Both the position numbers and the translations under genes were made by a program. Shown piece after piece: positions 6,250-27,847 of a stretch of 64,000 nucleotides of DNA (its first letter is position 1; every line of letters begins with the position of its first letter). Origin of the DNA: an uncultured Sphaerochaeta sp. (GTDB lineage Bacteria > Spirochaetota > Spirochaetia > Sphaerochaetales > Sphaerochaetaceae); NCBI RefSeq assembly GCF_963666015.1, contig NZ_OY762555.1, positions 3,311,607-3,375,606 on the forward strand, in the 5' to 3' direction. The notes under the pieces were generated by a model. It had not been told where the DNA came from, made no database searches, and saw only the letters and a list, made by a program, of their open reading frames with translations.

Positions 6250-6265
6250 TTGCGAAATGTTGCAA
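6250..6265 (+). promoter_or_regulatory. Candidate purine-regulon operator, copy 1 (upstream of ygfK)
   Basis: TTGCGAAATGTTGCAA, an imperfect palindrome. It differs in 2 of 16 positions from the copy before adenine deaminase at 23182. It ends 6 bases before the -35 hexamer, a position typical of an activator site. The binding protein is not identifiable in this window. Confidence 0.6.
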
Positions 6266-6271
6266 AAAATA

Positions 6272-6299
6272 TTGACTTCTCTTCAATCTGCATTAGAAT
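6272..6299 (+). promoter_or_regulatory. Sigma-70-type promoter of the ygfK operon
   Basis: TTGACT (6272-6277), a 16-bp spacer and TAGAAT (6294-6299). Start of transcription is expected near 6306, leaving a leader of about 44 bases with AAGGAG before the ATG at 6350. Confidence 0.65.
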
Positions 6300-6349
6300 G
6301 AGAAAGGGTCGGGTAGTGAACCCGGCGACACCTTTCGAAGGAGTGAGTA

Positions 6350-9300
6350 ATGGGAGACATTATGCGCCCAGTTCCCTTCACGGAACTTATTAGCCGTATC
6401 GTTGGTGAGTACAGAAATCACCATACCATATTCGGTATTGCCGAAGAACAATTTTATCATGAGAGCGGCAAGCACAGCCTGAACGTATTCTCCCAGAGTT
6501 GTGCCACACCCTGCGGGCCTGCTGCAGGCCCCCACACCCAGTTGGCCCAGAATATCATCGCAAGCTATCTTGTCGGTGGTAGGTTCATGGAGTTGAAGAC
6601 AGTCCAGGTGCTTGATACCCTGGAGATTGAGAAACCCTGTATTGATGCACGAGATGAGGGATACAACGTTGAGTGGTCCAGTGAGTTTACCCTTCCCAAA
6701 GCATGGGACGAGTATGCAAAAGCCTGGATTATCCTGCATCTGCTGGAAGCAGTAATGCAGAAAGGAAAGTTCGAGAAACCTTCCTTTATCTTTAACATGT
6801 CTGTTGGGTACAACTTGGAAGGCATCAAGACAGAGAAGATGCAGAAATTCATTGACTCCATGATCGATGCACGTAAAGATGAACGCTTTTCTGAGTACTT
6901 GCAGGAGCTGGAAGTGCTGATTGAAGAAGGGTTGTTTGAAGGCACTCCTTGGGAAGGGCTCGAAAAGAAGGTCAAAGGCATCAGTGAGAAGATCAGCTGG
7001 AATATCAGCCCATCGACTACGCTCAGCACGATGCATGGATGTCCTCCAAAAGAAATTGAAGCCATCTGCAGCTATATGCTGACAGAGAAGAAGGTAGACA
7101 CCTTTGTAAAGCTCAACCCAACCTTGCTCGGATTTGATACGGTTCGTACAATACTTGATGATCTCGGGTTTGATTACCTTACCCTCAGCAGGGAAAGCTT
7201 TGAGCACGACCTGCAATACCCCGATGCAATTGCCATGTTGCATCGCCTGGTTGACCTCGCAAAGAAAGAGGGCAGAGGTTTTGGTGTAAAACTGACCAAC
7301 ACCCTTGGATCAGTGAACGACCAGGGAGTACTTCCCGGCGGTGAGATGTACATGTCAGGCCGTACCTTGCTTCCTATCTCCACAACTGTGGGACTCAAGC
7401 TCAGTAAGGAGTTTGACGGCAAACTCCCTATCAGCTACAGTGGTGGGGCCAATGCCTTTACGATCAAAGCATTATTTGAGAGTGGTATCAGGCCTATTAC
7501 CCTGGCAACTGATATGCTCAAGCCAGGTGGCTACACCCGCATGAAACAGCTTGTGGAAATCCTTGAAGAGAGTGATGCCTGGAAGATGGATGGCATTGAT
7601 GTTGAGAAACTCGAAAAGCTCTCAGAGGATGCACGAGCGGGTAAGTATGCCGTAGCTGAAAAAGACTTCAGGGGAACTGATACCGTGAAGATTGGGGAGA
7701 AGCTCCCCCTCTTTGATTGCTATGTTGCACCTTGCCAGACTGCTTGTCCGATCCATCAGGACGTACCAGAGTATGTACAGCTTGTTGGCCAGGGCCGCTA
7801 TGGCGAAGCCTTGGCAGTCATCTACGACAAGAACGCACTTCCCTCCATCACCGGTCACATCTGTGACCACCAGTGCCAACTGCACTGTACCCGCATGGAT
7901 TATGAGGGAGCAGTTCGTATCCGTGATATGAAGCGTATTGCAGTAGAGAACGGATTTGAGGAGTACAAGCAGCTCTGGGAAGGTCCAACTGACAAAGCTG
8001 AAATCAAGGCTGCAGTTGTTGGCTCAGGTCCTGCAGGACTTTCTGCGGCATATTTCCTTGCGAGAGCAGGTTTCGATACCGCGGTCTTCGAGAGGGAAGA
8101 GAGTGCAGGTGGTGTCGTTCGCCATGTCATCCCTGGATTTCGCCTTCCTGTGGAAGCAATTGAGAGTGATGTCGAATTCATCAAGGCTCACGGTGTACAG
8201 TTCAATTATGGAGTAGATGCAGAGAAAATGACCGTAGAAGCACTACGTGCTCAAGGTTACTCCCGTATCTTCTACGCAATCGGAAGTGAAGTGGACAATG
8301 ATATTCCCTTGCAGGGGGACCGGAGCAGGGTAAGACCCTCTCTCTCCTTCCTCTCTGCATTCAGGAAAGATCCATCAACCCTATCCCTTGGCAAGCATGT
8401 TGTGGTTGTCGGTGGTGGAAACACTGCGATGGACAGCGCACGAGCCGCTACCAGGATCAAGGGTGTTGAGAAGGTTTCGGTAATCTATCGAAGAACCGAG
8501 AAGGAGATGCCGGCTGACCATGAAGAGTATGGAATGGCACAGGATGAGAATGTTGAGTTCATCTTCCTTGCAAATCCTGAACGCTTCGATGGCAATATGC
8601 TCACTGTCCGAAAGATGGAACTCGGTGAAATGGATGCCAGCGGAAGACGAAGACCCGTGGCGACCGAAGAGACCTTCACCATTGAAGCAGACACCATGAT
8701 CACTGCAATTGGTGAACATGCCGATACTGAGAAGCTTACTTGGTACGGAGTGCCTGTCAACGAGAAGGGTTGGGCTAAGGCAGATGAGGAGACCAAGGAG
8801 TCTGAAGTTTCAGATGTATACGTCATTGGTGACGCACAGAGTGGCCCTTCTACTGTGGTAAGGTGTATCGCAAGTGCTCGTTCGGCGGTTGAAGCCGCCA
8901 TCGACAAGGTGCTTGGTCCTGAAGAGGAAGAGCACGAACATGTGCACGATGAGCATTGTGACCATGACCACGAAGATGATGATGCATTTGAAGAAGAAGA
9001 GATGAGCGACGAAGAGAGGGTGCAGCTCGAAAAGGATGAGAATGAGTTCTTCGCAGACGTAACTGAAAAGAAGAGCAAAATTCTCTCTCCGAAGGAGTTC
9101 GGTGATAAGAAATTTGCAGCAACTGAGGCTGCTCGCTGTATGGAATGCTCCTACCTCTGTAATAAGTGTGTGGATGTATGTCCGAACCGCGCAAACGTTG
9201 CAATTGATGTAAGGAATCTCGGGTTGTTTGCAGACCCCTTCCAGATTCTCCACCTCGATGCATACTGCAACGAGTGTGGCAACTGTGAAACGTTCTGTCC

Positions 9301-9556
9301 CTACGATGGCGGCCCCTATCGCAAGAAGTTCACGCTCTTCAGCCGAAAGGATGATTTTGAGAACTCAGAGAACAGTGGATTCTTCGCAGAAGGTGAGGAT
9401 ATCCTGGTTCGCCTCGATGGGAAAACCTACGAGTGCGAGATGGACGCAGACGGTATCCTGGTAGGGGAAGAGGAAGGCATTACTGATGAGGTTGCCGCCT
9501 TGATCGAAGAGGTATACACCTCATACAGCTACCTGCTTGGATATGTAGAAGCGTAA
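6350..9556 (+). CDS. ygfK: YgfK-type iron-sulfur flavoprotein oxidoreductase (annotated as putative selenate reductase subunit)
   Basis: 1068 aa, the usual family size. Residues 1-430 form a dihydropyrimidine-dehydrogenase-like barrel domain. A glutamate-synthase-small-subunit-like module follows, with cysteines CYVAPCQTACP (about 457-467), the FAD loop GSGPAGLSAAYFLA (about 555) and the NAD(P) loop VGGGNTAMDSARAA (about 684). The C-terminus has ferredoxin-type clusters CMECSYLCNKCVDVCP (about 930) and CNECGNCETFCP (about 973). A His/Asp/Glu-rich linker (about 857-890) is inserted before the ferredoxin domain. It is known from anaerobic purine/urate degradation clusters and from E. coli selenate work; it probably passes NAD(P)H electrons to or from the purine ring together with XdhD (inference). 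First gene of the operon; ssnA begins 11 bases after its stop. Confidence 0.93.
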   Translation: MGDIMRPVPFTELISRIVGEYRNHHTIFGIAEEQFYHESGKHSLNVFSQSCATPCGPAAGPHTQLAQNIIASYLVGGRFMELKTVQVLDTLEIEKPCIDARDEGYNVEWSSEFTLPKAWDEYAKAWIILHLLEAVMQKGKFEKPSFIFNMSVGYNLEGIKTEKMQKFIDSMIDARKDERFSEYLQELEVLIEEGLFEGTPWEGLEKKVKGISEKISWNISPSTTLSTMHGCPPKEIEAICSYMLTEKKVDTFVKLNPTLLGFDTVRTILDDLGFDYLTLSRESFEHDLQYPDAIAMLHRLVDLAKKEGRGFGVKLTNTLGSVNDQGVLPGGEMYMSGRTLLPISTTVGLKLSKEFDGKLPISYSGGANAFTIKALFESGIRPITLATDMLKPGGYTRMKQLVEILEESDAWKMDGIDVEKLEKLSEDARAGKYAVAEKDFRGTDTVKIGEKLPLFDCYVAPCQTACPIHQDVPEYVQLVGQGRYGEALAVIYDKNALPSITGHICDHQCQLHCTRMDYEGAVRIRDMKRIAVENGFEEYKQLWEGPTDKAEIKAAVVGSGPAGLSAAYFLARAGFDTAVFEREESAGGVVRHVIPGFRLPVEAIESDVEFIKAHGVQFNYGVDAEKMTVEALRAQGYSRIFYAIGSEVDNDIPLQGDRSRVRPSLSFLSAFRKDPSTLSLGKHVVVVGGGNTAMDSARAATRIKGVEKVSVIYRRTEKEMPADHEEYGMAQDENVEFIFLANPERFDGNMLTVRKMELGEMDASGRRRPVATEETFTIEADTMITAIGEHADTEKLTWYGVPVNEKGWAKADEETKESEVSDVYVIGDAQSGPSTVVRCIASARSAVEAAIDKVLGPEEEEHEHVHDEHCDHDHEDDDAFEEEEMSDEERVQLEKDENEFFADVTEKKSKILSPKEFGDKKFAATEAARCMECSYLCNKCVDVCPNRANVAIDVRNLGLFADPFQILHLDAYCNECGNCETFCPYDGGPYRKKFTLFSRKDDFENSENSGFFAEGEDILVRLDGKTYECEMDADGILVGEEEGITDEVAALIEEVYTSYSYLLGYVEA

Positions 9557-9566
9557 GGAGGAACAA

Positions 9567-10889
9567 GTGGCTACAACGGTAATTAAACAAACCCGGATTA
9601 TGCAGACCCAGCCGCCCTTTGAGGTACAGGAAGGTGTTGACATCGTCATCGTCGATGATGTCATCACCAAGGTAAGCAAGGGTGCAGCAGAGACTATACA
9701 TGCAGATAAGGTTATTGATGGAAGGGGCAAGACGGTAATTCCCGGGAATGTCTGTTCCCATCACCACTATTACTCTGGGCTCTCCAGAGGCATGCTTGCC
9801 TCTGCAGGTCCGCAGACTGACTTCATCCAGATATTGAAAGAGTGGTGGTGGCGTATCGACCGTGCCCTTGATGAGGAAGCTTGTTACTACAGCTCTCTGA
9901 TCAGCTCGATCGACGCCATTGCAAGTGGTACCACCACCTGTATTGACCACCATGCAAGCCCTTCCTATATTGCAGGATCTCTTGACACCATTGCCAAGGG
10001 AATGGAAGACGTTGGGGTGCGTGGAGCTACCTGCTACGAAGTTACCGATAGAAACGGTGGAATGAAAGAGGTGGAAGCAGGCGTCGAGGAAAACCTTCGT
10101 TTTGCCATGGCCGCCAAGAGCAGTTCACTGGTTCGTGGAATGATTGGGGGACATGCCCCGTTCACCATCCCTGATGCTGGGTTGAAGCTTATGGGAGAGG
10201 CGATGGCAGAGACAGGTGCGGGCGTCCATCTCCATGTTGCAGAAGACAAGTACGATGTGGTGCACAGCCACCATAAGTACCACTTGGATATCGTTGACCG
10301 ATTGGAAAAATTTGGACTTCTGACTGATAACTCTCTCTTGGTTCATGGGCTTTGGCTCAGTGAGGCTGAGGTGGAAAAGATCAACGCTCATGGTACGTTC
10401 CTTGCACACAATGGACGTAGCAACATGAACAACAATGTTGGTTACTTCAAGCAGATCCAGAAGGTTGATAATTTGGTCATCGGAACTGATGGCTGTGGTG
10501 GAAATATGTTTGAAGAGCTCAAGATTGCATTTTTCAAGCATAAGGATCAGGGTGGTTCCTGGTGGCCCGCAGATTTTGTGACTGCCATGGGCCGCGGAAA
10601 CCAGTTGGTTGAGAAGTATTTTGACGGGAAGTACGGTAAGGTTGCTGCCGGTTATAAAGCTGATTTGACCATCTGTGATTACCATGCACCAACCCCGCTG
10701 GTCGCAGACAATGCTGCAACCCATTTTGTATGGGGCATGAGCAGCAACTGCGTGGAAAGTGTCATGATTAATGGAAAGCTGGTGATGGAAAACCATCAGT
10801 TCCCAGGCCTTGACGTACAGAAAATCTATGAAGAGGCAGCAAAAGTAGCTAAGCGCGTTTGGGATACAGTAAATACAATCGCTCCGTAA
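9567..10889 (+). CDS. ssnA: SsnA-type amidohydrolase/aminohydrolase
   Basis: 440 aa, matching SsnA length. Metal ligands of the amidohydrolase superfamily are visible: SHHHYYSG (HxH, about 65), HLHVAED (about 223), LVHGLWLS (about 258) and TDGCGGN (about 310). It starts with GTG at 9567, behind AAGGAGG overlapping the ygfK stop region, so it is translationally coupled. Family members hydrolyse C-N bonds of purine-like rings, and in urate-degrading anaerobes ssnA is part of the ring-opening set; the exact substrate is not settled. It is cytoplasmic. A second, distinct member of the superfamily is encoded at 12467. Confidence 0.92.
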   Translation: MATTVIKQTRIMQTQPPFEVQEGVDIVIVDDVITKVSKGAAETIHADKVIDGRGKTVIPGNVCSHHHYYSGLSRGMLASAGPQTDFIQILKEWWWRIDRALDEEACYYSSLISSIDAIASGTTTCIDHHASPSYIAGSLDTIAKGMEDVGVRGATCYEVTDRNGGMKEVEAGVEENLRFAMAAKSSSLVRGMIGGHAPFTIPDAGLKLMGEAMAETGAGVHLHVAEDKYDVVHSHHKYHLDIVDRLEKFGLLTDNSLLVHGLWLSEAEVEKINAHGTFLAHNGRSNMNNNVGYFKQIQKVDNLVIGTDGCGGNMFEELKIAFFKHKDQGGSWWPADFVTAMGRGNQLVEKYFDGKYGKVAAGYKADLTICDYHAPTPLVADNAATHFVWGMSSNCVESVMINGKLVMENHQFPGLDVQKIYEEAAKVAKRVWDTVNTIAP

Positions 10890-10941: not shown

Positions 10942-12156
10942 ATGACAATTCAAGAACAAATTAGGGCAAAGGCTGCCGAGTATCGTGACTACACGGCATT
11001 GAATCTCTCAAAGATGGTGCAGACCAAGAGCTATAGCTCCCAGGAAGAGGATGTATGTCGTCTCATCGTAACCCTTTGTGAAGAAGCTGGCTTTGATGAA
11101 GTGTATATCGATGGATTGGGCTCGGTTATCGGCCGCGTCGGCAATGGTCCCAAGAAGATTGCTTTTGATGCCCATATCGATACTGTTGAGGTTGGAAACC
11201 TGAAGAACTGGGATTTCGATCCTTTCAGTGGTGAGATCAAGGACGGCAAAGTCTGGGGTCGTGGTTCCAGTGACCAGAAGGGTGGTGCAGCTTCTATGAT
11301 CACTGCCGGTAGAATCCTCAAGGAGCTCGGATACAGTGGTGAGTATACCGCTTATTTTACATTCACCGTCATGGAAGAAGACTGTGATGGTATGTGCTGG
11401 AAGTACCTCATCGAGGAAGAGAACTTCAGACCCGATCTTGTTGTTTCCACTGAGCCTACCACCTGCCGCCTCTATCGTGGTCACCGCGGCCGCATGGAGA
11501 TCAGGGTAATCCTCAGGGGAATTTCCTGTCACGGTAGTGCTCCAGAGCGTGGAGTAAGTGCTGCCTACAAGGCTGCAAAGGCAGCTCTTGCCATCGAGCA
11601 GTTGAACAAGGACCTCAAGCCGGATGCAGAGAACTTCCTTGGGAAAGGTACCATCACCGTCAGCCAGATGGATGTAAAGGGACCGAGCCAGTGCGCTGTT
11701 GCAGACTATGCAATGCTCTACCTTGACCGCCGTCTTACTTGGGGTGAGGATGCAGATCTTGCTATCTCGCAGGTTCGTGAGTACATCAGCAAGGCAACCG
11801 GTGATGATCCAGAGTCAATCGTTGTCGAGATGCCCAACTATGAGAAGATTGGTTGGACCAAGAAAGAGTATTCACAAGAGCTGTACTTCCCTACCTGGAA
11901 AATTGACGCTGACCACCCACTGGTAGAAGCTGGTGTTGCCGGCCATGAGGCTCTTTTTGGTAAGAAGCCCGTTGTTGACAAGTGGACTTTCTCCACCAAC
12001 TTGGTCGCTACCACTGGTCGTCATAAGATTCCTGCTATTGGTTTTGGCCCTGGTGATGAGTCACAGGCTCACGCACCGAACGAAATCAACCGTGTGGATG
12101 ACCTTGAGATCTGTGCTGCATTCTATGCAATGCTTCCCTATTCCTTGGAGAGGTAG
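10942..12156 (+). CDS. ygeY: YgeY family M20 hydrolase/selenium metabolism hydrolase
   Basis: 404 aa. M20/ArgE/DapE di-zinc pattern: DAHIDTVE (about 76), GSSDQKGG (about 111), the catalytic EED in TVMEEDCDG (about 144), EPTTCR (about 172) and HAPNEI near the C-terminus. YgeY belongs to the purine cluster and is thought to cleave an amide or ureido bond of an open-ring intermediate. RBS GAAAGAGG lies before the ATG. It follows ssnA by 52 bases and is followed by a hairpin at 12192, so transcription may partly stop here. Confidence 0.92.
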   Translation: MTIQEQIRAKAAEYRDYTALNLSKMVQTKSYSSQEEDVCRLIVTLCEEAGFDEVYIDGLGSVIGRVGNGPKKIAFDAHIDTVEVGNLKNWDFDPFSGEIKDGKVWGRGSSDQKGGAASMITAGRILKELGYSGEYTAYFTFTVMEEDCDGMCWKYLIEEENFRPDLVVSTEPTTCRLYRGHRGRMEIRVILRGISCHGSAPERGVSAAYKAAKAALAIEQLNKDLKPDAENFLGKGTITVSQMDVKGPSQCAVADYAMLYLDRRLTWGEDADLAISQVREYISKATGDDPESIVVEMPNYEKIGWTKKEYSQELYFPTWKIDADHPLVEAGVAGHEALFGKKPVVDKWTFSTNLVATTGRHKIPAIGFGPGDESQAHAPNEINRVDDLEICAAFYAMLPYSLER

Positions 12157-12466
12157 TACGTAGAATAGTACTCGCTTCATATGGTATACTACAGCCACAG
12201 GGATTGACGCCTTGTGGCTGTTTGGAGCTTAAGGTGTTACATTGTTTATTTTTGTAGATAATGGTGGAACACAGGAACTGGCCCGACAGGTGCAAAAGGG
12301 GCTCTGCCTGCAGGGTATATAGAAATAACCAAGGTTGTGGAGTTGCCCCCTTCCTTCTCCACTCCTTCCTTGCGGAACTACCCGCATGCCGTCCTCATAA
12401 AGTATTGCAAGTGTAGCACCGACGTCTATGTGTCGTGTCCTTGCAGGAAGAAGGAGATATACAGGC
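12157..12466 (+). promoter_or_regulatory. 310-base untranslated region before the second deaminase, with hairpins
   Basis: No credible gene. The first part holds a terminator-like hairpin (12192-12220). Further on are GTGGAG/CTCCAC (12337-12362), a palindromic CCTGCAGG (12307-12314) and CACCGAC/GTCGTG (about 12417-12437), then AAGGAG before the ATG at 12467. A structured leader or an internal promoter is likely. I could not match it to a riboswitch class by eye. Confidence 0.45.
12192..12220 (+). terminator. Hairpin after ygeY
   Basis: CAGCCACAGG/CCTTGTGGCTG arms (8 perfect pairs plus a bulge) with a short loop, 36 bases after the ygeY stop. It is followed by only TTTGG, so it is a weak or partial terminator. 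Confidence 0.45.
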
Positions 12467-13855
12467 ATGAGTTCCTCGCTTCTCTTGAAGAACATCTATT
12501 GTCTACAACCCACATTTGATGGAAAGAAATATTGGGGCGCTGATTTGTTGATCGAAAACAACAAGGTCGCCAAGATTGCTCCTGGGGGTGGATTGGCTGC
12601 TCCCGCAAAGGGTCGTACCATCGACTGCTCAAACCATGTGGTCATCCCTGGTTTGGTCAATACGCATCACCACTTCTACCAGACATTAACCAGAAATCAT
12701 CCTGCTGTACAGAATGCAAAACTCTTTGATTGGTTGAAATTCCTCTATGAGGTGTGGAAATATGTGGATGAGGAAGCAGTCTATTACTCATCGATGCTTG
12801 CAATGGCTGAGTTAATGAAGACCGGATGTACGCTTACCACTGACCACCACTATCTCTATCCCCGTTCTTTCAAGGGTGATCTTATGGGCCTGCAATTTGA
12901 GGCTGCAGACACTTTGGGAATGCGCTTCAGTCCCACGAGAGGCTCGATGAGTTTGAGCAAGAAGGATGGAGGACTTCCCCCCGACAGCGTCGTACAGACT
13001 GAGGATGAGATCCTCGCTGACAGTGAGCGGTGTATCAAGACTTACCATGATAGTGCCCCGGATGCAATGCACAAGATAGCCCTCGCTCCCTGTAGTCCCT
13101 TCAGTGTCACCAAGGATTTGATGACAAAGACCGCTGAACTTGCAAGGAAGTATGGGGTGCGATTGCATACCCATCTCTGTGAGACCTATGATGAAGCTGA
13201 TTTCTGCCAGGAGATGTATGGGATGCGTCCTGTTGCTCTGATGCAGGAGTGTAATCTTATCGGGGATGATGTCTTTTATGCACATGGAATCCATTTCAAT
13301 GATGAAGAGTTGAAAATCCTTGCAAAGACAGGTTCCCATATTGCCCATTGCCCGTCCTCGAACATGCGCCTCGGTAGTGGTATCTGCCGGGTCAACGAGA
13401 TGTTGCCGATGGGTATCAATGTTGCGGTTGCTGTGGATGGAAGTGCCAGCAATGACAGTTCCGATATGCTTGCTGAGGTACGTCAGGCAATGCTTCTGCA
13501 ACGGGTGAAATATGGTTCTGATGCACTGAGTGCCAATGAGGCATTCACCATGGCAACTGAAAACGGTGCCAAAGCTCTCAATTTCTCGAATGTTGGCCGC
13601 CTGGAAGAAGGGTGGGCTGCCGATCTGGCAATTTTTGACGTTTCCAAATTACCCTATGCGGGAAGCCAGAGTGATCCGGTTGCAAGCTTGCTTTTTTGCG
13701 GCACCAATCACAACACTGACTATACAATCATTAATGGAAAGGTTGTAGTCGACCATGGGCAGCTGGTCGGATATGACGAGCAGGAACTTGCAGACAAGGC
13801 AAATGCCATCAGCAAGCGTATGATGGGTCAAGCTGCCAAAGAGGAGGCTGTATGA
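12467..13855 (+). CDS. Amidohydrolase-type deaminase, 8-oxoguanine deaminase/hydroxyatrazine hydrolase-like
   Basis: 462 aa. Metal-binding pattern NTHHHFYQTLTR (about 66), HTHLCETYDE (about 240), YAHGIHFNDEE (about 275) and VDGSASND (about 327). The HHxYQTLTR and TTDHHYLYP segments are those of the 8-oxoguanine deaminase/AtzB-like branch, rather than SsnA or guanine deaminase. The expected reaction is hydrolytic removal of an amino group from a purine, for example 8-oxoguanine or guanine to urate or xanthine. Start chosen at 12467 (AAGGAG 11 bases upstream); the upstream in-frame ATG at 12428 has no RBS. Its stop overlaps the ygfM start as ATGA, so it is coupled to the hydroxylase genes. Confidence 0.85.
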   Translation: MSSSLLLKNIYCLQPTFDGKKYWGADLLIENNKVAKIAPGGGLAAPAKGRTIDCSNHVVIPGLVNTHHHFYQTLTRNHPAVQNAKLFDWLKFLYEVWKYVDEEAVYYSSMLAMAELMKTGCTLTTDHHYLYPRSFKGDLMGLQFEAADTLGMRFSPTRGSMSLSKKDGGLPPDSVVQTEDEILADSERCIKTYHDSAPDAMHKIALAPCSPFSVTKDLMTKTAELARKYGVRLHTHLCETYDEADFCQEMYGMRPVALMQECNLIGDDVFYAHGIHFNDEELKILAKTGSHIAHCPSSNMRLGSGICRVNEMLPMGINVAVAVDGSASNDSSDMLAEVRQAMLLQRVKYGSDALSANEAFTMATENGAKALNFSNVGRLEEGWAADLAIFDVSKLPYAGSQSDPVASLLFCGTNHNTDYTIINGKVVVDHGQLVGYDEQELADKANAISKRMMGQAAKEEAV

Positions 13856-14685
13856 TACAGGAATATCTCATAGCGAATACTACTGAAGACGCTCTGAACA
13901 AGAAGCGTTCAAACACCAAGAGTGTGTTTTATGCTGGGGGGACGGAGATCAACCGTCTTCATTCAACTGTTGAGGGCCAGACTGCCATCAGCCTCTCCAA
14001 GCTTGGTTTGGATACCATCACAGATGAAGGTTCCACCATCAAGATTGGGAGCATGGTAACGTTGCAGCAGTTGATCGAATCACCATTGATCCCTTCATGG
14101 CTCAAGGATGCTGCTCATTTCTGTGGTTCCTTCACCAAGCGAAATATGGCCACCATCGGAGGCAATCTTGCACTGATGAGTGACCACTCCTATCTTGCTC
14201 CAGCATTGATTGCAAGCCGCGCTCGGCTTCTTACGGCCAACCTGACGGAAAAGGGAGTATACAGTGAGGACAATATTCCCATCCGCGAATACCATGCTTA
14301 TCACAAGCAGTTTGCAGGTACCTTGTTGTTAGCTGTCAGCCTCTCCAAGGATGACCGGTATGTGGGAACCGTGCGATATGCAATGAGCAGCCAGAACCGT
14401 GCTGCGGTAACCGTTGGATTCAGTGCAACAAAGGACAGTGAGCAGGTCATAGACCACGTACGGGTCTTTGTCGCTGTATACGGAAAAGGTGTCCAACGAT
14501 TGGAAAAGGTAGAGAATTCTATCGAGAACGGTGAGTTGACCACAAGAGAGGATGTACAGCTTGCTGTGCGGCATGACATCGAGGTCGTGGACGATATGAC
14601 TGGCAGCTCCGATTACAAGCGCTATATAGCCAGTGAAGGGGTGGGGCAACTCTTCTCTGCATTTCTCAAAGGAGGTGCACAATGA
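13852..14685 (+). CDS. ygfM: YgfM-type FAD-binding subunit of a molybdopterin hydroxylase
   Basis: 277 aa. The family is recognised from YAGGTEINR (FAD pyrophosphate loop, about 28) and NMATIGGNLA (about 98), as in XdhB/CoxM flavoproteins. It lies directly before xdhD, as in E. coli, with ATGA overlaps on both sides (13852 and 14682). Expected role: take electrons from, or give them to, the molybdenum subunit. Because the partner XdhD lacks [2Fe-2S] ligands, the usual Mo-FeS-FeS-FAD wire is broken, so the function of this FAD is an open question. Confidence 0.88.
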   Translation: MIQEYLIANTTEDALNKKRSNTKSVFYAGGTEINRLHSTVEGQTAISLSKLGLDTITDEGSTIKIGSMVTLQQLIESPLIPSWLKDAAHFCGSFTKRNMATIGGNLALMSDHSYLAPALIASRARLLTANLTEKGVYSEDNIPIREYHAYHKQFAGTLLLAVSLSKDDRYVGTVRYAMSSQNRAAVTVGFSATKDSEQVIDHVRVFVAVYGKGVQRLEKVENSIENGELTTREDVQLAVRHDIEVVDDMTGSSDYKRYIASEGVGQLFSAFLKGGAQ

Positions 14686-17584: not shown

Positions 17585-17592
17585 CATAAATC

Positions 17593-17621: not shown

Positions 17622-17669
17622 GCCATTGTCTGGATTTTTATGATTCAAAACTTACGGAGGTTTCCCCAC

Positions 17670-18869
17670 ATGAAGGACAAAGCCACAATCAAACAGATGA
17701 TCGAGGAACTGAAAACCCTCAAAACTGACAACATGTATCTCAACGACTTTTTCCATACCTGGAAAGAGAGTGATGACGAAATTGCTGCCGTTTTTCAGGT
17801 AGCAGAAGTACTGCGTGCATTACGCGAGAACAATATTTCCACCAAGGTGTTCGACAGTGGACTTGGAATCTCCGTTTTCCGTGACAACTCCACAAGAACA
17901 CGCTTCAGCTTTGCAAGTGCTTGTAACCTGCTCGGCCTTGAGGTCCAGGATCTTGACGAGAAGACCAGCCAGATCGCTCACGGAGAGACCGTTCGTGAAA
18001 CTGCCAACATGGTGAGCTTCATGGCTGACGTCATCGGTATCCGTGACGACATGTACATTGGCAAGGGTTACACCTACATGAAGACTGTTGCCGAAGCTGT
18101 ACAGGATGGCTATGACGATGGAGTACTCGAGCAGAGACCCACCTTGGTCAACCTCCAGTGCGATATCGACCACCCAACCCAGAGCATGGCTGATATGCTG
18201 CACGTAATCAACCACTTTGGTGGTGTTGAGAATCTCAAGGGTAAGAAAGTAGCCATGACCTGGGCCTACAGTCCTTCATACGGCAAGCCTCTTTCTGTTC
18301 CTCAGGGCATCATCGGGTTGTTCACCCGCTTTGGCATGGATGTCGTACTTGCTCACCCAGAAGGGTACAATGTAATGGCTGATGTTGAAGAAGTCGCTGC
18401 AGAGAATGCCAAGAAGAGCGGTGGTTCCTACAAGAGAGTGGAGTCTATGGCTGAAGCATTCAAGGATGCTGATATTGTCTATCCCAAGAGCTGGGCTCCT
18501 TTCGCTGTCATGGAAGAGAGAACTAAGATTGTTGAGCAGGGCGACCAGGAAGCATTGAAAGCACTGGAGAAGACCTGTCTGGCAAACAATGCAAAATTCA
18601 AGGATTGGACCTGTACTGAAGAGTTGATGAAGACCACCAAGGACGGAAAGGCACTCTACATGCACTGCCTGCCTGCTGACATCACTGGTCTTTCCTGTAA
18701 GGAAGGTGAGGTTGAAGCTTCCGTATTCGACAGGTACTTGGTACCCCTGTACAAGGAAGCCAGTTACAAGCCCTACGTCATTGCGGCCATGATTTTCCTT
18801 GCAAAGTTCCAGAATCCTTCTGCAAAGCTGGAAGAGCTGCTTGAGGCTGCTGTAAAGCGCATCAAATAG
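17670..18869 (+). CDS. ygeW: YgeW knotted carbamoyltransferase
   Basis: 399 aa, close to E. coli YgeW. The carbamoyl-phosphate loop SVFRDNSTRTRFSFAS (about 75-90) and the HCLPA motif (about 332) define an aspartate/ornithine carbamoyltransferase fold. The natural carbamoyl acceptor of YgeW is not established; in purine-degrading anaerobes it is thought to release carbamoyl phosphate from a ureido intermediate, which would allow ATP formation. Start chosen at 17670 (CGGAGG 9 bases upstream); the upstream ATG at 17640 has no RBS. It has its own promoter and operator copy, so it may be expressed separately from ygfK-xdhD. Confidence 0.92.
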   Translation: MKDKATIKQMIEELKTLKTDNMYLNDFFHTWKESDDEIAAVFQVAEVLRALRENNISTKVFDSGLGISVFRDNSTRTRFSFASACNLLGLEVQDLDEKTSQIAHGETVRETANMVSFMADVIGIRDDMYIGKGYTYMKTVAEAVQDGYDDGVLEQRPTLVNLQCDIDHPTQSMADMLHVINHFGGVENLKGKKVAMTWAYSPSYGKPLSVPQGIIGLFTRFGMDVVLAHPEGYNVMADVEEVAAENAKKSGGSYKRVESMAEAFKDADIVYPKSWAPFAVMEERTKIVEQGDQEALKALEKTCLANNAKFKDWTCTEELMKTTKDGKALYMHCLPADITGLSCKEGEVEASVFDRYLVPLYKEASYKPYVIAAMIFLAKFQNPSAKLEELLEAAVKRIK

Positions 18870-21612: not shown

Positions 21613-21633
21613 AAAAGAACAGAGCTGAAGCTC

Positions 21634-22920
21634 TTAGAGGGCGCCGAAAATAATCTTGATCACGAACAGAGCAAAAACAACCCAGGTCATCTTCGAGATT
21701 TCTTTGGTCTTCTTGGTGAACAGCTTGAGCAATACGAATGAAAGAATACCAAACATGATACCATCGGCAATGCTGTAGGCTACGATCATGAAGATAATGG
21801 TCAAGAAGGCTGGGATAGCTTCGGTCATCTCGTCCCACTCGATATCCTTTACCGGGCTCATCATCATAACTCCGACAATGATCAAGGCAGGTGCTGTAGC
21901 AGCACTAGGAATGGAACCGAACAACGGTTCGAGGAAGAGGGAGAGAGCAAAAAGAATTGCAACGGTCAAAGCGGTCAAACCAGTTCTTCCACCTTCAACA
22001 ACACCACTGGAAGATTCAACAAATGTGGTAACGGTTGAGGTTCCGAGGATTGCACCAGCGGTGGTTCCGATTGCATCAGCGAACAGTGCTTCCTTACAAT
22101 TGGGGATGGATCCATCATCCTGGATCATGTCTGCCTTGGTGGCACAACCGATCAGGGTTCCAACTGTATCGAACATATCTACAAACAGGAAGGTGAAGAC
22201 AACAACGATGAAGTCAACACTCATGATATTAGAGAACTCGAATGGGAAGAAGTAAGGGGCTGGGGGAAGGTAAGAGCCACCCTTGTATGCGGTAATTCCA
22301 AAAGGAATGCCGATAATGGTGGTGACGATAATTCCAATCAGAAGGGCGCCGTTTACCTTGTGGGCCAAGAGGATACCGGTAATGATTAAGCCAATCATGG
22401 CAAGGCCGGGAGCTCCCATGAACCAGTCAGCATTCAGAGCAACCAACGTAGCTCCGTCAACGATGATACCAGCGTTCTGCATGCCAATGAAAGCAATGAA
22501 GAGACCGATACCAACACCAATTGCACGTTTTAGGTTGGCCGGGATACTGTTGACAATTGCCTCACGGATATTGGCAGCGGTGAGGATCAAGAAAATGATA
22601 CCTTCAACGAATACTGCCGTGAGGGCGAACTGCCATGTGTAACCCATACCGAAAACGACGGTGTAGGTAAGGAAGGCGTTCAGACCCATGCCTGGGGCAA
22701 GAGCGAATGGTAGATTGGCCAACAGGGCCATTACCAAGGTTGCGATTGATGCAGCAATTGCAGTTGCAGCAAATACTTTGGAGAAGTCCATTCCGGATTC
22801 GGAAAGGATGCCTGGGTTGACGGCAAGAATGTAAGCCATGGTTAAGAAGGTAGTAATACCTGCCATGACTTCAGTCTTGACGGTCGTTTTTCGTTCTTTG
22901 AGCTTGAAAAACTTTTCCAT
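21634..22920 (-). CDS. AzgA/PbuG-family purine permease (NCS2)
   Basis: 428 aa, about 12-13 membrane segments. The N-terminus MEKFFKLKERKTTVKTEVMAGITTF and the signatures NPGIL, ALAPGMGLNAF and FVDMFDTVGTLIG identify the adenine/guanine/hypoxanthine branch of the NCS2 superfamily rather than the xanthine/urate branch. It is a proton-coupled inner-membrane importer. Start at 22920 (AAGGAG 7 bases upstream); earlier ATGs are unsupported. It diverges from adenine deaminase, fitting adenine import followed by deamination to hypoxanthine. Confidence 0.92.
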   Translation of the reverse strand: MEKFFKLKERKTTVKTEVMAGITTFLTMAYILAVNPGILSESGMDFSKVFAATAIAASIATLVMALLANLPFALAPGMGLNAFLTYTVVFGMGYTWQFALTAVFVEGIIFLILTAANIREAIVNSIPANLKRAIGVGIGLFIAFIGMQNAGIIVDGATLVALNADWFMGAPGLAMIGLIITGILLAHKVNGALLIGIIVTTIIGIPFGITAYKGGSYLPPAPYFFPFEFSNIMSVDFIVVVFTFLFVDMFDTVGTLIGCATKADMIQDDGSIPNCKEALFADAIGTTAGAILGTSTVTTFVESSSGVVEGGRTGLTALTVAILFALSLFLEPLFGSIPSAATAPALIIVGVMMMSPVKDIEWDEMTEAIPAFLTIIFMIVAYSIADGIMFGILSFVLLKLFTKKTKEISKMTWVVFALFVIKIIFGAL

Positions 22921-23000
22921 CGATGCACTCCTTGCAGATGTTTTGGTTGATACCATTCTACCCTATCTGTATCAAATCGTACAGAAAAATCGTTACATTT

Positions 23001-23141: not shown

Positions 23142-23169
23142 TTGAAGAATTATTGTGAGGTGTTACACT
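23142..23169 (+). promoter_or_regulatory. Adenine deaminase promoter
   Basis: TTGAAG (23142-23147), 16-bp spacer, TACACT (23164-23169). The predicted start near 23176 places the TTGCR-N6-TGCAR site at about +6 to +21. Confidence 0.5.
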
Positions 23170-23181
23170 GATAGAAAGACG

Positions 23182-23197
23182 TTGCAAAATGTTGCAG
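23182..23197 (+). promoter_or_regulatory. Candidate purine-regulon operator, copy 3 (adenine deaminase leader)
   Basis: TTGCAAAATGTTGCAG, 14 of 16 bases identical to the ygfK copy. It lies between promoter and ribosome binding site, a repressor-like position. Confidence 0.6.
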
Positions 23198-23208
23198 AAG
23201 GAGCTCGT

Positions 23209-24954
23209 ATGGTTACGAAGAAAAATATGCAGGAAGTGATAGAAACTGCAGCAAGACGAAAAAAAGCTGACTTGTGCATTACGAATGCCCATATTTTGGA
23301 TGTATATAACAAGGAGTGGTTTGAGGCTGACCTTCTGGTCCAGTCAGGATATATAGCTGGTTTTGCTGAGTGTGGACAGGGAGAGGCAGAAACAGTGATT
23401 GATGGTGGAGGACGATATCTTCTGCCAGGGTTTATTGACAGTCATGTGCATATAGAGTCCAGCCATGCCACTCCAGAAGAGTTCTCCAATCTCGTGGTTC
23501 CTTGTGGAACCACCACAGTAGTTGCAGACCCCCATGAAATCTGCAATGTATGTGGCCTCGATGGATTGTTCTATATGCTGGAGGCATCTAAAGAGACAGC
23601 TTTGCAAGCTTTCTTTATGGTGCCTTCCTGTGTACCGGCTACTACCTTTGAGCATAGTGGAGCTGTATTGGAAGCAAAAGATATCAAAGAAGCCCTGCAG
23701 CACGAGAGAGTTCTCGGGTTGGGAGAGATGATGGACTTCCCTGGTGTAGTGGCCGGTACAGATTTGGTCGTAGACAAGATCATGGAGGCGAAGCACCTCT
23801 GTAAGGTGATCGATGGCCATAGCCCAGCGATCAGCGGGGCAGAGCTTGATGCCTATGCAAGTACAGGAATACTAACCGACCATGAGTGTGAGAATGAGAA
23901 AGAGTTGCGTGATCGTATCCGTCGAGGTATGTATGTCATGCTCCGTGAAGGGTCGGCTTGTAAAAATGTATTGATGCTCCTGGGAGGAGTGACGGAAAAA
24001 AACAGCAGACGCTGTATCTTCTGCACGGATGACAGGCAACCAAAAAGCATTCTCACCGATGGGCACATCAACAACAACGTACGCATTGCAGTACAGGATG
24101 GACTTGATCCAATTGAGGCCATTTGCATGGCCACCATCAATAGCGCAGATTGCTATCACCTTACCGACCGGGGTGCGATTGCACCTGGAAAGCGTGCGGA
24201 CTTCTCTCTCTGCAATGACCTGAAAGAGTTCTCCATGCACCAGGTATATGTAGCGGGAGAGTTGGTAGCTGAGGATGGATTGGTCTGCAAAGCTGCTAAA
24301 GCAAAGCATGATGAGAGGGTCTCTGGCATGATGCATGTCAAGGATTTCTCTGTCGATCGCCTCAGGCTGCCTCTTTCCATATCCCATGTTCGGGTCATTG
24401 ATATCATCCCAGGGGGAGTGGTCACTGGAGCGGGGGAGGCTATAGTGACGGTGGAAAACGGTGAATGGGTGCATGATAAGAGTCAGGATATCATCAAGCT
24501 TGCAGTGGTTGAGCGTCACACAGGAACGGGAAATGTGGCTGTGGCGCTCTTGCGTGGGTATGGCCTGCAGGGTGGGGCGATGGCTACATCCGTAGCCCAT
24601 GACTCACACAATATCATTGTAGCAGGGGATGATGATGAGGATATGGCCATGGCTGTAGAACACTTGATCTCCATTGGTGGCGGTATGGTGATTGTGAAAC
24701 AAAGGAAAATACTGGCTTCCTTTGCACAGAACGTTGCTGGTTTGATGAGCTATGAACCAGGCTCAGTGATCGCTGAGCAGCTGGACAACCTTCACCATAT
24801 TGCACAGGAATCACTACATATAGGCAAGGAAATCGATCCCTTCATGACACTCTGTTTTATGTCGTTGCCGGTTATTCCTGCATATAAACTCACTGATATG
24901 GGGTTGTTTGATGTAAGAAGTTTCAGCTTTGTTCCTCTGGAGCTCAATAGATAA
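23209..24954 (+). CDS. ade: Adenine deaminase
   Basis: 581 aa, matching the bacterial Ade/AdeC family. HVHIESSHATPEEF (about 80) supplies metal ligands, DPHEICNVCG and GHSPAISG follow, and the C-terminal half carries HDSHNIIVAGDD, diagnostic of adenine deaminase. Reaction: adenine plus water to hypoxanthine plus ammonia, in the cytoplasm. Start at 23209 with AGAAGGAG upstream; the longer reading from 23155 would overrun the promoter and operator. Its 3' end overlaps the convergent ATPase gene by 11 bases. It feeds hypoxanthine towards the xanthine/urate route encoded at 6350-18869. Confidence 0.95.
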   Translation: MVTKKNMQEVIETAARRKKADLCITNAHILDVYNKEWFEADLLVQSGYIAGFAECGQGEAETVIDGGGRYLLPGFIDSHVHIESSHATPEEFSNLVVPCGTTTVVADPHEICNVCGLDGLFYMLEASKETALQAFFMVPSCVPATTFEHSGAVLEAKDIKEALQHERVLGLGEMMDFPGVVAGTDLVVDKIMEAKHLCKVIDGHSPAISGAELDAYASTGILTDHECENEKELRDRIRRGMYVMLREGSACKNVLMLLGGVTEKNSRRCIFCTDDRQPKSILTDGHINNNVRIAVQDGLDPIEAICMATINSADCYHLTDRGAIAPGKRADFSLCNDLKEFSMHQVYVAGELVAEDGLVCKAAKAKHDERVSGMMHVKDFSVDRLRLPLSISHVRVIDIIPGGVVTGAGEAIVTVENGEWVHDKSQDIIKLAVVERHTGTGNVAVALLRGYGLQGGAMATSVAHDSHNIIVAGDDDEDMAMAVEHLISIGGGMVIVKQRKILASFAQNVAGLMSYEPGSVIAEQLDNLHHIAQESLHIGKEIDPFMTLCFMSLPVIPAYKLTDMGLFDVRSFSFVPLELNR

Positions 24955-25699
24955 GTGTCTTTGTACCGACTTGTGCAACAGTTAGCTCGGTATCATAAAG
25001 GGTGGTCAGCATGGCAGTGGTGACCACCTTTTCTTTTGGCCCATAACAGAGCAGCGATCCCTTCTTCACCATGGCCACATGGCTTGCCAGGTCGTAAGCA
25101 AGGTTTGCATCATGGGTGGTAAACAGAAGGGTTTTTCCCTTCGCATGCAACTGTTTCAGGATGGTAAGAACCCGTTTCCGGTTGGCAGGGTCCAATGCAC
25201 TTGTAGGTTCGTCAAGCAAGAGCATGGAGCTTTGTTGAGCAATGGCTCTTGCAAGTAGCAACAACTGATGTTCTCCTCCGCTCAAGGTGGTGATATGCCT
25301 CTCTGCATAGTTTGCCAAACCTACATCATAGAGTGCTTGATAGGCTATCTCTGCATCCACTTCACTTGGTGTTCCCAGCCCTGAAAGGTAGGGGGAACGT
25401 CCAAACAGCACGTAATCGATCAGAGAAAAAGAGAAGTTGTATTGTTCGAATTGAGGAACCAATGCCAATGTCCTTCCCAGCTCCTTTCTTCCATAGGTGG
25501 AGAGAGATTTGCCATACAACGAAACTTCCGCGCTCCTCTGCCATCCCAACAGGAAATCCAGGAGCGTTGACTTTCCGGCTCCATTGGAGCCCAGGATAGC
25601 TACACTCTGTCCTTCTTCTACGGAGAGAGAGACATCATCGAGCGCTTTGGTGCCGCTTGGGTAGATAAAACTCAGATGATTTACAGTCAAAGCGTTCAT
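24944..25699 (-). CDS. ABC transporter ATPase of a FecCD/BtuCD-type importer
   Basis: 251 aa. Walker A GSNGAGKSTLL (about 37), signature LSGGEHQLLLLARA (about 140), Walker B MLLLDEPTSALD (about 161) and the H-loop TTHD. Its start at 25699 overlaps the permease stop as ATGA, with AGGAGGG upstream. It works as a homodimer with the permease dimer at 25696. The substrate class (iron-siderophore, haem, cobalamin, or molybdate/tungstate as in the MolBCA subgroup) cannot be read from the ATPase. Confidence 0.92.
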   Translation of the reverse strand: MNALTVNHLSFIYPSGTKALDDVSLSVEEGQSVAILGSNGAGKSTLLDFLLGWQRSAEVSLYGKSLSTYGRKELGRTLALVPQFEQYNFSFSLIDYVLFGRSPYLSGLGTPSEVDAEIAYQALYDVGLANYAERHITTLSGGEHQLLLLARAIAQQSSMLLLDEPTSALDPANRKRVLTILKQLHAKGKTLLFTTHDANLAYDLASHVAMVKKGSLLCYGPKEKVVTTAMLTTLYDTELTVAQVGTKTLIY

Positions 25700-26715
25700 G
25701 CTTTGCCCTCCTGGTGCTTGAGTGAGAGGATGATCATGAAGATAATCGCCCCAATGAAGCTGGTGAGCAGTCCGATGGGAATCTCTGTGGCCAGGACGGT
25801 TCTCCCGATGGTATCGCAAACCAAGAGAAAGAATGATCCCAGGATCATGGAACCAGGGAGGCTGGTGGAACTATCGGAGCCAAACAACTTACGAGCCAGG
25901 TGTGGGGTGATCAATCCAACCCACCCAATCAGACCGGTGATGGAAATGGTGACCGTGGTTCCTACCGTGGCAACTATCAGAAGAATAATCCTGTCTCGCT
26001 TGGGGTTCATTCCCACAGAGAAAGAGGTTTTCTCCTGGAGACTAAGCAAATTGAGTTTCCATCTGTAACCGAGGAGAATACCCATGCTGAGGATGACTAT
26101 CCATAGAATGGAGAGAATTTGGGTCCATGAGGCATTCCAGAGCCCTCCCATCATCCAGAAGGTGATGTCTTGCAGATCCTTGGTAGGTTCCGCCACCAGT
26201 TTTACCACACCTAGTGCACTGGAAAAGAGGGCTGATACCGCTATCCCACTGAGCACCAACCGTAACAACCACCCTCCAAACCTGAAACGGGTTGCAAGCA
26301 AGTAGGATGCGAGCAAAGCCAACAGCCCAAAAAACGTAGCACTCAGTTGGACGAAGAAGGTTGAGCCCACTCCCAGGACAATCATCAATGCTGCCCCGAA
26401 TGCCGATCCTTGGCTCACGCCCAGAAATCCAGGTTCAACCAAAGGATTGGAGAACAGCATCTGGAATGTGAATCCGCTTGCACTGAGCATAGCCCCGGCA
26501 AGCAGGGCTAGAACAATACGGGGAAGCCGTATGCGCAGGAAAATGCTCCTGGTCATGGCATTGGTTGACCAGTCAGCGGGAAATCTGAAACCGGCAGAGG
26601 GATACCTTCCTGCAAAGAGGAACAGGAAGGCCAGGAGCAGTGTTGCTCCCAACATTCCCAGCAGGAGCCCTGTTCGCCGTTTACGCTCTACCTGGTAGCG
26701 CTGGTGGGCCTTCAT
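25696..26715 (-). CDS. FecCD/BtuC-type ABC permease
   Basis: 339 aa with about ten hydrophobic segments. Family signatures are visible: RLPRIVLALLAGAMLSASGFTFQMLFSNPLVEPGFLGVSQG (shortened in meaning: the conserved R-L-P-R and N-P-L-x-x-P-x-x-L-G blocks, about 50-90) and GLIGWVGLITPHLAR with the GxxxFxGLxxPH-type ATPase contact (about 265). It sits in the middle of the binding-protein-permease-ATPase operon, with 4-base overlaps at both ends. Confidence 0.92.
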   Translation of the reverse strand: MKAHQRYQVERKRRTGLLLGMLGATLLLAFLFLFAGRYPSAGFRFPADWSTNAMTRSIFLRIRLPRIVLALLAGAMLSASGFTFQMLFSNPLVEPGFLGVSQGSAFGAALMIVLGVGSTFFVQLSATFFGLLALLASYLLATRFRFGGWLLRLVLSGIAVSALFSSALGVVKLVAEPTKDLQDITFWMMGGLWNASWTQILSILWIVILSMGILLGYRWKLNLLSLQEKTSFSVGMNPKRDRIILLIVATVGTTVTISITGLIGWVGLITPHLARKLFGSDSSTSLPGSMILGSFFLLVCDTIGRTVLATEIPIGLLTSFIGAIIFMIILSLKHQEGKA

Positions 26716-27815
26716 AGTGCATTAATGGCAACCGAATTACTGTAGCGGTCTCTCAGCAATTCAAGCTTCTGCTCATCGGTGAGATGATAGAAATCCTGGT
26801 AGAATGAGGTGACCTCATTCTGCATGTTCAACGCAGAAAAGTGCTGGGGATAGACTTCCGAAGCCATCCACTGCATCCCAAGGATCCAGGAAGCAACCGG
26901 CTGGATATAGTTCATCATATCATAGGGACTTGCCTTTACCTGTCTGTTCTCAACCGCTCGAAGGGACGACCAGATCTCTGACTCATAGATTGCCTCAATA
27001 TACTGGTCAGTCGGGGTACGGTAGCTCACAACGATAATGATATCAGGATCCCAGGCAGCAATCTGTTCGAAACTTACCGTAGACCAACCGTTTGCTGCCT
27101 TGTTGGCACCTTTCCATACTGCCTCGGCACCAATGGTCTCGACCATCCATGTTTGCATCCACTCATCTGGAGCAATCTTGTAGGAGTAGGTGTTGTCGGC
27201 GGTGTTTGCCTGGAGGAGGAGTACTCGCTTCTTATCCTGTGCATCGATTGAGGATGCCTTTTTCCTGATTGGATCAAGCCGTTCTTCGTAGAGGTCAAGT
27301 ATTTCAGCAGCTCGCGTGTTGTTCTTCAGTAGCTTGCCAAGCTCAGTCACCTCTCTCTTCCAATCCTCGTAGGATTCAAGGTTCATTGTGAAATTGGGTA
27401 CCCCAAGTTGGTCAAGCTTTTGTGCAATTGAGGCAAAGTGGGTTGCCTTGGTCAGTACCAGTTCACTCTGGTAGCTGGCGATCTCTTCCACACTGGCTAC
27501 CTGACTGATACGTGGGTTGTCATCCAACGAGGGTCTGATGAATGAGAAGAAGTCTCCTAATCCCTGGTCAGTCTTGGGAAGGGTAAGATCCATCTCAGTC
27601 ACTTCAGGGAAAAGAAATAATGCATTTGCAGGCATATTGCCCGCTTTTCCTGCAATCAATACCTTTGATGGTTTTTCCTGCAATTTGAGTGTTCTTCCAT
27701 TTGCATCGACTGCCTGGTAGTAGCCACTCTCTTGTATTGCTTGTTCAGCCGCCCCTTGTGCAAAGAGCAAGGCTGGGATCATGCAGAGTAGTAAGGCTAT
27801 AGTTTTACATTTCAT
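26712..27815 (-). CDS. Periplasmic substrate-binding protein of the FecCD-type importer
   Basis: 367 aa with a Sec signal peptide (MKCKTIALLLCMIPALLFAQG; cleavage after about residue 19). The rest has the two-lobe BtuF/FhuD layout with a long connecting helix (about 165-190). First gene of the operon, start at 27815 behind AAAGGAGA. A TTGCR-N6-TGCAR site overlaps its expected transcription start, the same motif as in the purine genes. Molybdate or tungstate for the molybdenum hydroxylase is therefore an attractive substrate (inference); iron complexes or cobalamin remain possible. Confidence 0.85.
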   Translation of the reverse strand: MKCKTIALLLCMIPALLFAQGAAEQAIQESGYYQAVDANGRTLKLQEKPSKVLIAGKAGNMPANALFLFPEVTEMDLTLPKTDQGLGDFFSFIRPSLDDNPRISQVASVEEIASYQSELVLTKATHFASIAQKLDQLGVPNFTMNLESYEDWKREVTELGKLLKNNTRAAEILDLYEERLDPIRKKASSIDAQDKKRVLLLQANTADNTYSYKIAPDEWMQTWMVETIGAEAVWKGANKAANGWSTVSFEQIAAWDPDIIIVVSYRTPTDQYIEAIYESEIWSSLRAVENRQVKASPYDMMNYIQPVASWILGMQWMASEVYPQHFSALNMQNEVTSFYQDFYHLTDEQKLELLRDRYSNSVAINAL

Positions 27816-27831
27816 AAAAGGGTCTCCTTTG

Positions 27832-27847
27832 TTGCGAATGGTTGCAG
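27832..27847 (+). promoter_or_regulatory. Candidate purine-regulon operator, copy 4 (FecCD importer)
   Basis: TTGCGAATGGTTGCAG, 14 of 16 bases identical to a composite of copies 1 and 3. On the minus strand a TATAAT hexamer (27854-27859) lies just upstream, so the site covers about +1 to +16 of the importer transcript. Confidence 0.5.

Follow-up and report, generated by a model that had tools for sequence, protein, structure and literature searches.

What reads the short, similar sites that lie in several gene gaps of a purine gene cluster in an uncultured Sphaerochaeta sp., and do these sites tie the cluster into one regulon? The window analysed, 64,000 nucleotides long, comprises bases 3311607-3375606 of a single-contig genome of 3.48 Mb (G000). 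An earlier reading of its letters, hereafter the original prediction, had described four copies of a TTGCR-N6-TGCAR palindrome linking the ygfK operon, ygeW, the adenine deaminase gene (ade) and a FecCD-type importer. Each copy was found with the position and letters given there, copies 1 and 3 do share 14 of 16 bases, copy 2 does read exactly TTGCA-N6-TGCAA, and the link to these genes holds. Quite probably, the sites serve as operators for a single autoregulated transcription factor, a 322-amino-acid protein of the layout HTH-(WYL-like)-WCX (HTH, helix-turn-helix), which would control reductive urate/purine catabolism. The sites and the promoters next to them are the following (RBS, ribosome-binding site; SBP, periplasmic binding protein), promoters and start sites being read by eye from the sequence throughout.

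6248..6264 (G000 3317854-3317870), plus strand: site 1, direct repeat TGTTGCGAAATGTTGCA, exact match, preceding the ygfK operon
6272..6299, plus strand: ygfK operon promoter TTGACT-N16-TAGAAT, 7 bp past site 1, read from sequence
17570..17586, minus strand: site 2, direct repeat TGTTGCAGTTTGTTGCA, exact match, preceding ygeW
17593..17621, plus strand: ygeW promoter TGGACA-N17-TATAGT, read from sequence
23180..23196, plus strand: site 3, CGTTGCAAAATGTTGCA, one mismatch, between a -10 box TACACT (23164-23169, by eye) and the RBS of ade
27830..27846, plus strand: site 4, TGTTGCGAATGGTTGCA, one mismatch, directly upstream of the RBS of the minus-strand SBP gene

Form and specificity of the site

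These sites consist of a direct repeat in head-to-tail order, with the TG ahead of TTGC as part of the unit and with copy 2 on the minus strand; the palindrome originally proposed was mistaken. The evidence comes from an alignment, anchored on TTGC-N8-GC, of 41 ygfK promoters that already showed the site (near-duplicates removed, 40 distinct sequences). Positions -1 to 4 and 9 to 14, both reading TGTTGC, are invariant in all 41; the anchor itself fixes positions 1-4 and 13-14, and the freely invariant positions are -1, 0 and 9-12. In the ygfK upstream regions of relatives, conservation of the TG is equally strong ahead of the first and the second TTGC, whereas positions 17-18, where a palindrome would require C and A, are mixed. 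Because both TGTTGC units are invariant while these mates vary, the operator predicted from the alignment is TGTTGCR-N3-TGTTGCA, two head-to-tail units with a 10-bp period, or one helical turn. A symmetric CRP- or LysR-like dimer on a true palindrome could draw on the letters of copy 2 and on the inner TTGC-N8-GCA symmetry, but is very improbable in view of the TG at -1/0 and at 9-10 in 41/41 ygfK sites, and the same alignment contradicts a palindromic operator with mirror-symmetric conserved bases. Before ygeW, the repeat lies on the minus strand and at the same place in the window, in eight aligned relatives and also in locus L008.

Scanned for TTGCRN6TGCAR, the window gave six matches at five places, against 0.95 expected, and none of 100 shuffles reached six; the fifth place (35677-35692) lies within an open reading frame (ORF), with letters that depart from the direct repeat. 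Across the 3.48 Mb genome the palindromic pattern proved unspecific, with 77 matches at 60 places. That number of places speaks for a chance likeness of unrelated gap sequences, an explanation rendered hardly credible by the conservation and the spacing specificity of the direct repeat. The latter occurs in the genome at three exact and six one-mismatch places, all nine of which sit in gaps before genes (from ORF lists and by eye), and its exact form is present in 53 of 61 family genomes. When gaps of 0 to 20 between the units were scanned in the 61 genomes, a gap of 3 collected 188 of the 449 matches, and the other 20 gaps shared 261, about 13 each; the base-uniform expectation for repeat matches is about 2. 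A reversed-pattern control gave 0 but was too easy, because the reversed pattern holds a CpG-bearing ACGT, and the spacing control is the better of the two.

Extent of the regulon

The conserved sites define one regulon for reductive urate/purine breakdown, which is real on the computational evidence. In the genome of the window, exact repeats precede ygfK, ygeW and the carbamate kinase gene, and one-mismatch sites precede ade, the importer SBP gene, xdhA, the HTH-WCX gene, deoD and an ABC SBP gene by pyrG. The tallies relied on concern loci chosen by protein (ygfK, the regulator, xdhA, ade, SBP and deoD). Within 250 bp upstream of ygfK, a site with at most one mismatch was found in 48 of 69 loci and in none of 69 coding stretches (75 loci less six without usable gene start). 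The 21 ygfK loci lacking it comprise eight spirochaete loci, one of them (L033) of the own family, and 13 non-spirochaete loci. xdhA, which belongs to an xdhABC operon and whose product scores above two NCBIfam cut-offs, carries the site in 16 of the 17 genus loci having upstream DNA (19 found). For ade, the count is 10 of 30 listed orthologues (60 genomes matched), two of the ten sites lying more than 200 bp upstream, and for the importer SBP gene 8 of 19 (those of 30 loci with at least 38% identity); the shuffled null is 0.0 in both cases, and each site is present in six of seven genus genomes, own included.

As checks on such a regulon, the original prediction had named the frequency of the motif inside genes and its conservation upstream of orthologues. 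The coding stretches examined are free of it (0/69 for ygfK and 0/60 for the regulator gene), and it is retained upstream of ygfK, ade and SBP orthologues at the rates given above. The genes that it had listed are correct members, but the list was incomplete, since xdhABC and carbamate kinase, which like the regulator gene lie outside the window, have conserved upstream sites as well.

Sixty regions (five own, 55 of relatives) and 10 motif regions of other families were chosen around motif matches, which biases their gene tallies; carbamate kinase and ygeW loci were picked by their sites and hence have no unbiased rate. In the ten regions of other spirochaete families, exact sites precede ygfK, a permease gene or ade, carbamate kinase and a molybdenum hydroxylase gene. 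Among relatives, sites also lie near a PnrA-type transporter gene and other molybdenum hydroxylase genes, and some site-chosen regions hold genes without an evident link (for a GGDEF protein, a DUF1015 protein and a TctC receptor).

Other candidate members are of varied standing. deoD was dropped, as a site with at most two mismatches was found in just six of 21 loci, all nearest relatives. In the closest relatives (L332-L337; G000:C1:587784-587810), head-to-tail units with a degenerate third one precede deoD, and in some genus members at greater distance only TCTTGCACTTT is retained there, so that the deoD site may be arising or decaying. The ABC binding-protein gene by pyrG is preceded by a one-mismatch site (G000:C1:1976514-1976530; L185 near 4515) whose layout resembles that of importer site 4, and this single match was left out of the regulon count. 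In L156, L171 and L189, the repeat precedes a class-V aminotransferase gene, in L156 beside a Rex-like repressor gene; the label rests on one scanned cluster member, and the enzyme may act in the purine pathway. In L166, L150 and L153, sites lie close to genes encoding a PnrA-like nucleoside-binding protein and two-domain ABC ATPases, which suggests that the regulon of some genomes extends to the uptake of purine nucleosides. In five spirochaete loci without the repeat (L034, L035, L038, L039 and L081), ygfK is preceded by another long conserved block, ATTACGCT...CGCAATA and TTGCWTAAAACC.CAGTTTTTT, for which an Rfam search of three loci gave no match.

The candidate regulator and its mode of action

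The protein most likely to read the repeat, judging from its own promoter and its distribution, is encoded outside the window.

G000:C1:2004395-2005360: candidate regulator, 322-amino-acid HTH-(WYL-like)-WCX protein

In its own promoter, the repeat TGTTGCAGAATGGTGCA begins 11 bp past a TATACT box and ends directly before the RBS, and many orthologues share this layout, with the repeat just past the -10 box. The 30 best regulator loci were taken from 51 matching genomes, and one with 18 bp of upstream DNA was left out; of the remaining 29, 26 carry the repeat with at most two mismatches and 20 with at most one, against a shuffled null of 0.05 and 0.0, respectively, and the own-promoter repeat is absent from L222, L225 and L231. 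Gene and motif also occur together, in statistics that ignore phylogeny. In the 61 family genomes, the regulator (E<=0.001) and the exact motif are both present in 48, the motif only in five, the protein only in three and neither in five (p=0.0019). In 148 genomes of the class, where the regulator was counted only as a full-length match at E<1e-120, a cut chosen by the analyst, the corresponding numbers are 19 with both, four with the protein only, four with the motif only and 121 with neither (Fisher p=1.6e-16); class genomes outside the own family yield 10 with both, two with the protein only, four with the motif only and 119 with neither (p=1.6e-10). Four genomes (G006, G013, G030 and G043, three of one genus) have ygfK and lack the exact motif, as would be expected where the regulator was not detected.

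The protein has an N-terminal HTH_11 domain (29.2 bits against a cut-off of 25), found in 28 of 28 orthologues at E<=1. Its C-terminal WCX domain is likewise present in 28/28 at E<=1 (best 5e-8), the own protein reaching 20.6 against a cut-off of 23.9. The WYL domain was absent among the 25 best Pfam matches listed for the own protein and the 25 families listed for the orthologue set, and the 322 residues hold no W-Y-L triplet. The family profile does match two DriD sequences over the WCX region (E 7.2e-6 and 8.4e-6), and an AlphaFold2 model of 28 orthologues, compared with the PDB by Foldseek, matched 32 chains at E<=0.001, of which 30 are DriD, PafBC, BrxR or CapW and two are 6oaw, a CRISPR-related protein. 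CapW and 6oaw (WYL1) we take to be WYL proteins. The best fold match is DriD (E 4e-11, about 350 columns aligned), with TM-scores of about 0.2-0.3 that are low because domain placement is uncertain. The protein was named WYL-like on the strength of the fold matches and the profile match to DriD, which make a WYL-type protein likely, and its central WYL (Sm-like) domain is putative. An invariant P-I-x-V-T-G-R-L-R-H stretch is only suggestive of a nucleic-acid or nucleotide ligand in a positive groove.

Several observations weigh against the regulon as outlined and against this protein as its reader. The model is of modest confidence (pLDDT, the predicted local distance difference test, 68), and beyond the genus few ade and importer genes carry a site. 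In the promoter of the regulator gene, the second unit of the repeat is mostly TGGTGC, not TGTTGC, and in other families this own site is weak, with five of ten within two mismatches and one at -145. At E<=1e-20, 35 of the 148 class genomes match the regulator, the 12 extra ones, taken as paralogues by score alone, being motif-free. Three family genomes (G009, G016 and G051) have the regulator without the exact motif; G051 retains a ygfK site with one mismatch, and in G009 and G016 no such site exists even at three mismatches. In addition, DriD, SiwR and BrxR are described as binding inverted or pseudo-palindromic sites (PMC12340889, PMC9122601, PMC10693628).

Finally, five family genomes (G003, G012, G019, G034 and G054, 79-96% complete) have the motif and no detected regulator. 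This last group, and the fact that belonging to a regulon does not prove being its regulator, would suit another protein reading the repeat, with the HTH-WCX gene merely one of its targets. Such an arrangement is unlikely, as four of the five genomes are less than 90% complete (G019 reaches 96%) and as autoregulation and cross-family co-occurrence fit the HTH-WCX protein as reader. A GntR protein encoded beside carbamate kinase, one alternative among the regulator genes of the genome, was rejected as the regulator, its gene being kept in just two of 13 loci.

With the HTH-WCX protein as the presumed reader, the sites fall into three geometries. In the first, at ygfK and ygeW, the site is centred near -50, ahead of the -35 box, which is near consensus at ygfK; in the second, at carbamate kinase and, by eye, xdhABC, it covers the -35/-10 region; in the third, at ade, the importer and the regulator's own gene, it spans about +1 to +21. 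The positions assigned by the original prediction agree with this, sites 1 and 2 lying 6-8 bp upstream of -35 boxes and sites 3 and 4 at about +1 to +21 (by eye). A TTGAC box follows the site by 6-9 bp in 39 of 41 ygfK promoters (TTGAC[AT] in 37 of those 39), with a -10-like hexamer at 16-17 bp in 38 of the 39 (TAGAAT or TACAAT in 28). At carbamate kinase, a TATNNT-like -10 box lies exactly 7 bp past the repeat in 11 of 13 loci (by eye). A DioR-type sigma54 -24/-12 promoter was rejected on account of the TTGAC and -10-like boxes at ygfK and of the 10-bp GC-to-GC spacing of the repeat, which departs from the -24/-12 spacing rule of sigma54 promoters.

The HTH-WCX protein would bind head-to-tail TGTTGC units one helical turn apart at the ygfK-ssnA-ygeY-amidohydrolase-xdh operon, ygeW, ade, xdhABC, carbamate kinase and the FecCD-type importer. 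It would act mainly as a repressor, because the second and third geometries suit one, keeping its own gene and the pathway low until a purine-derived ligand releases it. The -50 sites at ygfK and ygeW may also block polymerase rather than recruit it, since the ygfK -35 box is near consensus and the repeat is oriented oppositely at the two genes. One repressor could account for most site positions, although these differ, and the protein is probably an autorepressing repressor.

That the same regulator activates some promoters (ygfK and ygeW from -50, perhaps carbamate kinase) and represses elsewhere, close to the dual-mode regulator of the original prediction, is possible but rather doubtful. 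The tight 6-9 bp from site to -35 box in 39/41 ygfK promoters and the like centring of both -50 sites would suit an activator. So would the 7-bp distance at carbamate kinase, which resembles the fixed distance of DriD sites over the -35 box (PMC12340889), and the closest folds, DriD and PafBC, which are activators (PMC12340889, PMC11804915). Against this, TTGAC[AT] in 37/39 ygfK promoters contrasts with DriD promoters, whose -35 boxes are poor (PMC12340889), and repeat orientation differs between ygfK and ygeW.

Pathway genes, related systems and significance

The genes around the four sites form a single run from ygfK to the XdhD-like subunit, followed by ygeW, the permease, ade and the importer (FAD, flavin adenine dinucleotide).

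6350..9556, plus strand: ygfK (TIGR03315), 1416.7 bits, cut-off 835.3
9567..10889, plus strand: ssnA (TIGR03314), 529.3 bits, cut-off 455.5
10942..12156, plus strand: ygeY (NF009555), 494.3 bits, cut-off 321
12428..13855, plus strand: amidohydrolase, 8-oxoguanine deaminase-like (NF006055), 597.8 bits, cut-off 532
13852..14685, plus strand: FAD-binding subunit of molybdenum hydroxylase
14682..17561, plus strand: xdhD-like molybdenum/iron-sulphur subunit (TIGR03313), 1229.6 bits, cut-off 1101.9
17640..18869, plus strand: ygeW (TIGR03316), likely real start 17670, RBS read from sequence
21634..22956, minus strand: xanthine/uracil permease family gene, own copy without upstream site at one mismatch or fewer
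23155..24954, plus strand: adenine deaminase, ade (TIGR01178), likely real start 23209, RBS read from sequence
24944..25819, minus strand: importer ATPase (PF00005)
25696..26715, minus strand: FecCD permease (PF01032)
26712..27815, minus strand: SBP of the FecCD-type importer (PF01497)

YgfK of the window is 98% identical (best segment) to that of a Sphaerochaetaceae metagenome-assembled genome and 94% to that of Sphaerochaeta halotolerans. Relatives of the permease gene in other genomes (L155, L304 and L308) do have an upstream site. The cargo of the importer may be guessed to be molybdate, because the pathway needs molybdenum enzymes. Divergent from ygfK, and kept beside it in many relatives, are two genes for pyridoxal phosphate enzymes (3217-5967, minus strand), the smaller of which scores best with threonine synthase models, under their cut-offs; in L023, L027 and L078, a one-mismatch site precedes these genes. 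A tRNA gene (2552-2635, minus strand) is the sole Rfam match in the window at gathering score, and an RNA element was discarded as an explanation of the sites after this search.

These genes largely correspond to the enzymes of the reductive uric acid pathway, given as XdhD, YgfK, SsnA, HyuA, YgeW, YqeA, YgeY and YgeX, with SsnA noted in Spirochaetota (PMC12507026). For E. coli, the same source describes a Crp-binding site and glucose repression, and its available part names no spirochaete regulator (PMC12507026). A very similar gene set is controlled in Clostridiales by DioR, a sigma54 enhancer-binding protein whose regulon includes ygeW-ygfK-ssnA-ygeY, pbuX, xdhC-containing genes and fepDCB, whose name points to a FecCD-type importer (PMC6615313). 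The presence of fepDCB there gives independent support to the link between the FecCD-type importer and the purine pathway. DioR is an enhancer-binding activator of sigma54 promoters, unlike the sigma70-like promoters, HTH-WCX protein and direct-repeat operator found here. The original prediction had called the purine regulon one not described from the genes alone; this stands for the type of regulator and less so for the regulon, given the DioR precedent (PMC6615313).

Among HTH-WYL regulators, DriD, a WYL-domain activator of Caulobacter, shares the layout of HTH, three-helix bundle, WYL and WCX and is the best match to the predicted fold, but binds a 20-bp pseudo-palindrome, acts in DNA damage and reportedly does not regulate its own gene (PMC12340889). 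BrxR and SiwR are HTH-WYL regulators too, and BrxR represses from a repeat between its own -10 box and start codon; their operators are inverted-repeat or palindromic, and they serve phage defence or genotoxic stress, not catabolism (PMC9122601, PMC10693628). Taken together, the sites described for DriD, SiwR, BrxR and PafBC are palindromic, inverted or asymmetric single ones, and the roles are DNA damage, genotoxic stress and phage defence; as far as these accounts extend, a dimer on a direct repeat is not among the modes of DNA reading described (PMC12340889, PMC9122601, PMC10693628, PMC11804915).

It may tentatively be proposed that a WYL-family metabolic switch governs urate/purine catabolism in spirochaetes, with a WYL-like pocket sensing a purine or nucleotide and an asymmetric dimer reading two head-to-tail TGTTGC units. 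No description of a WYL regulator of purine catabolism, or of this regulon, was found in searches of one open-access library. PucR of Bacillus subtilis, a dedicated regulator of purine catabolism, belongs to another protein family and another pathway.

The HTH-WCX protein is a candidate for the control of anaerobic urate breakdown in Sphaerochaeta-like spirochaetes, a group with many genomes from animal guts and rumen, and TGTTGCR-N3-TGTTGCA provides a clean pattern with which to find more purine genes and transporters in spirochaete genomes. Should a homodimer truly read the direct repeat, this would illustrate how an operator can encode the asymmetry with which DriD and PafBC bind DNA. If the assignment is true, catabolism would join DNA damage and phage defence among the roles of WYL-type regulators.

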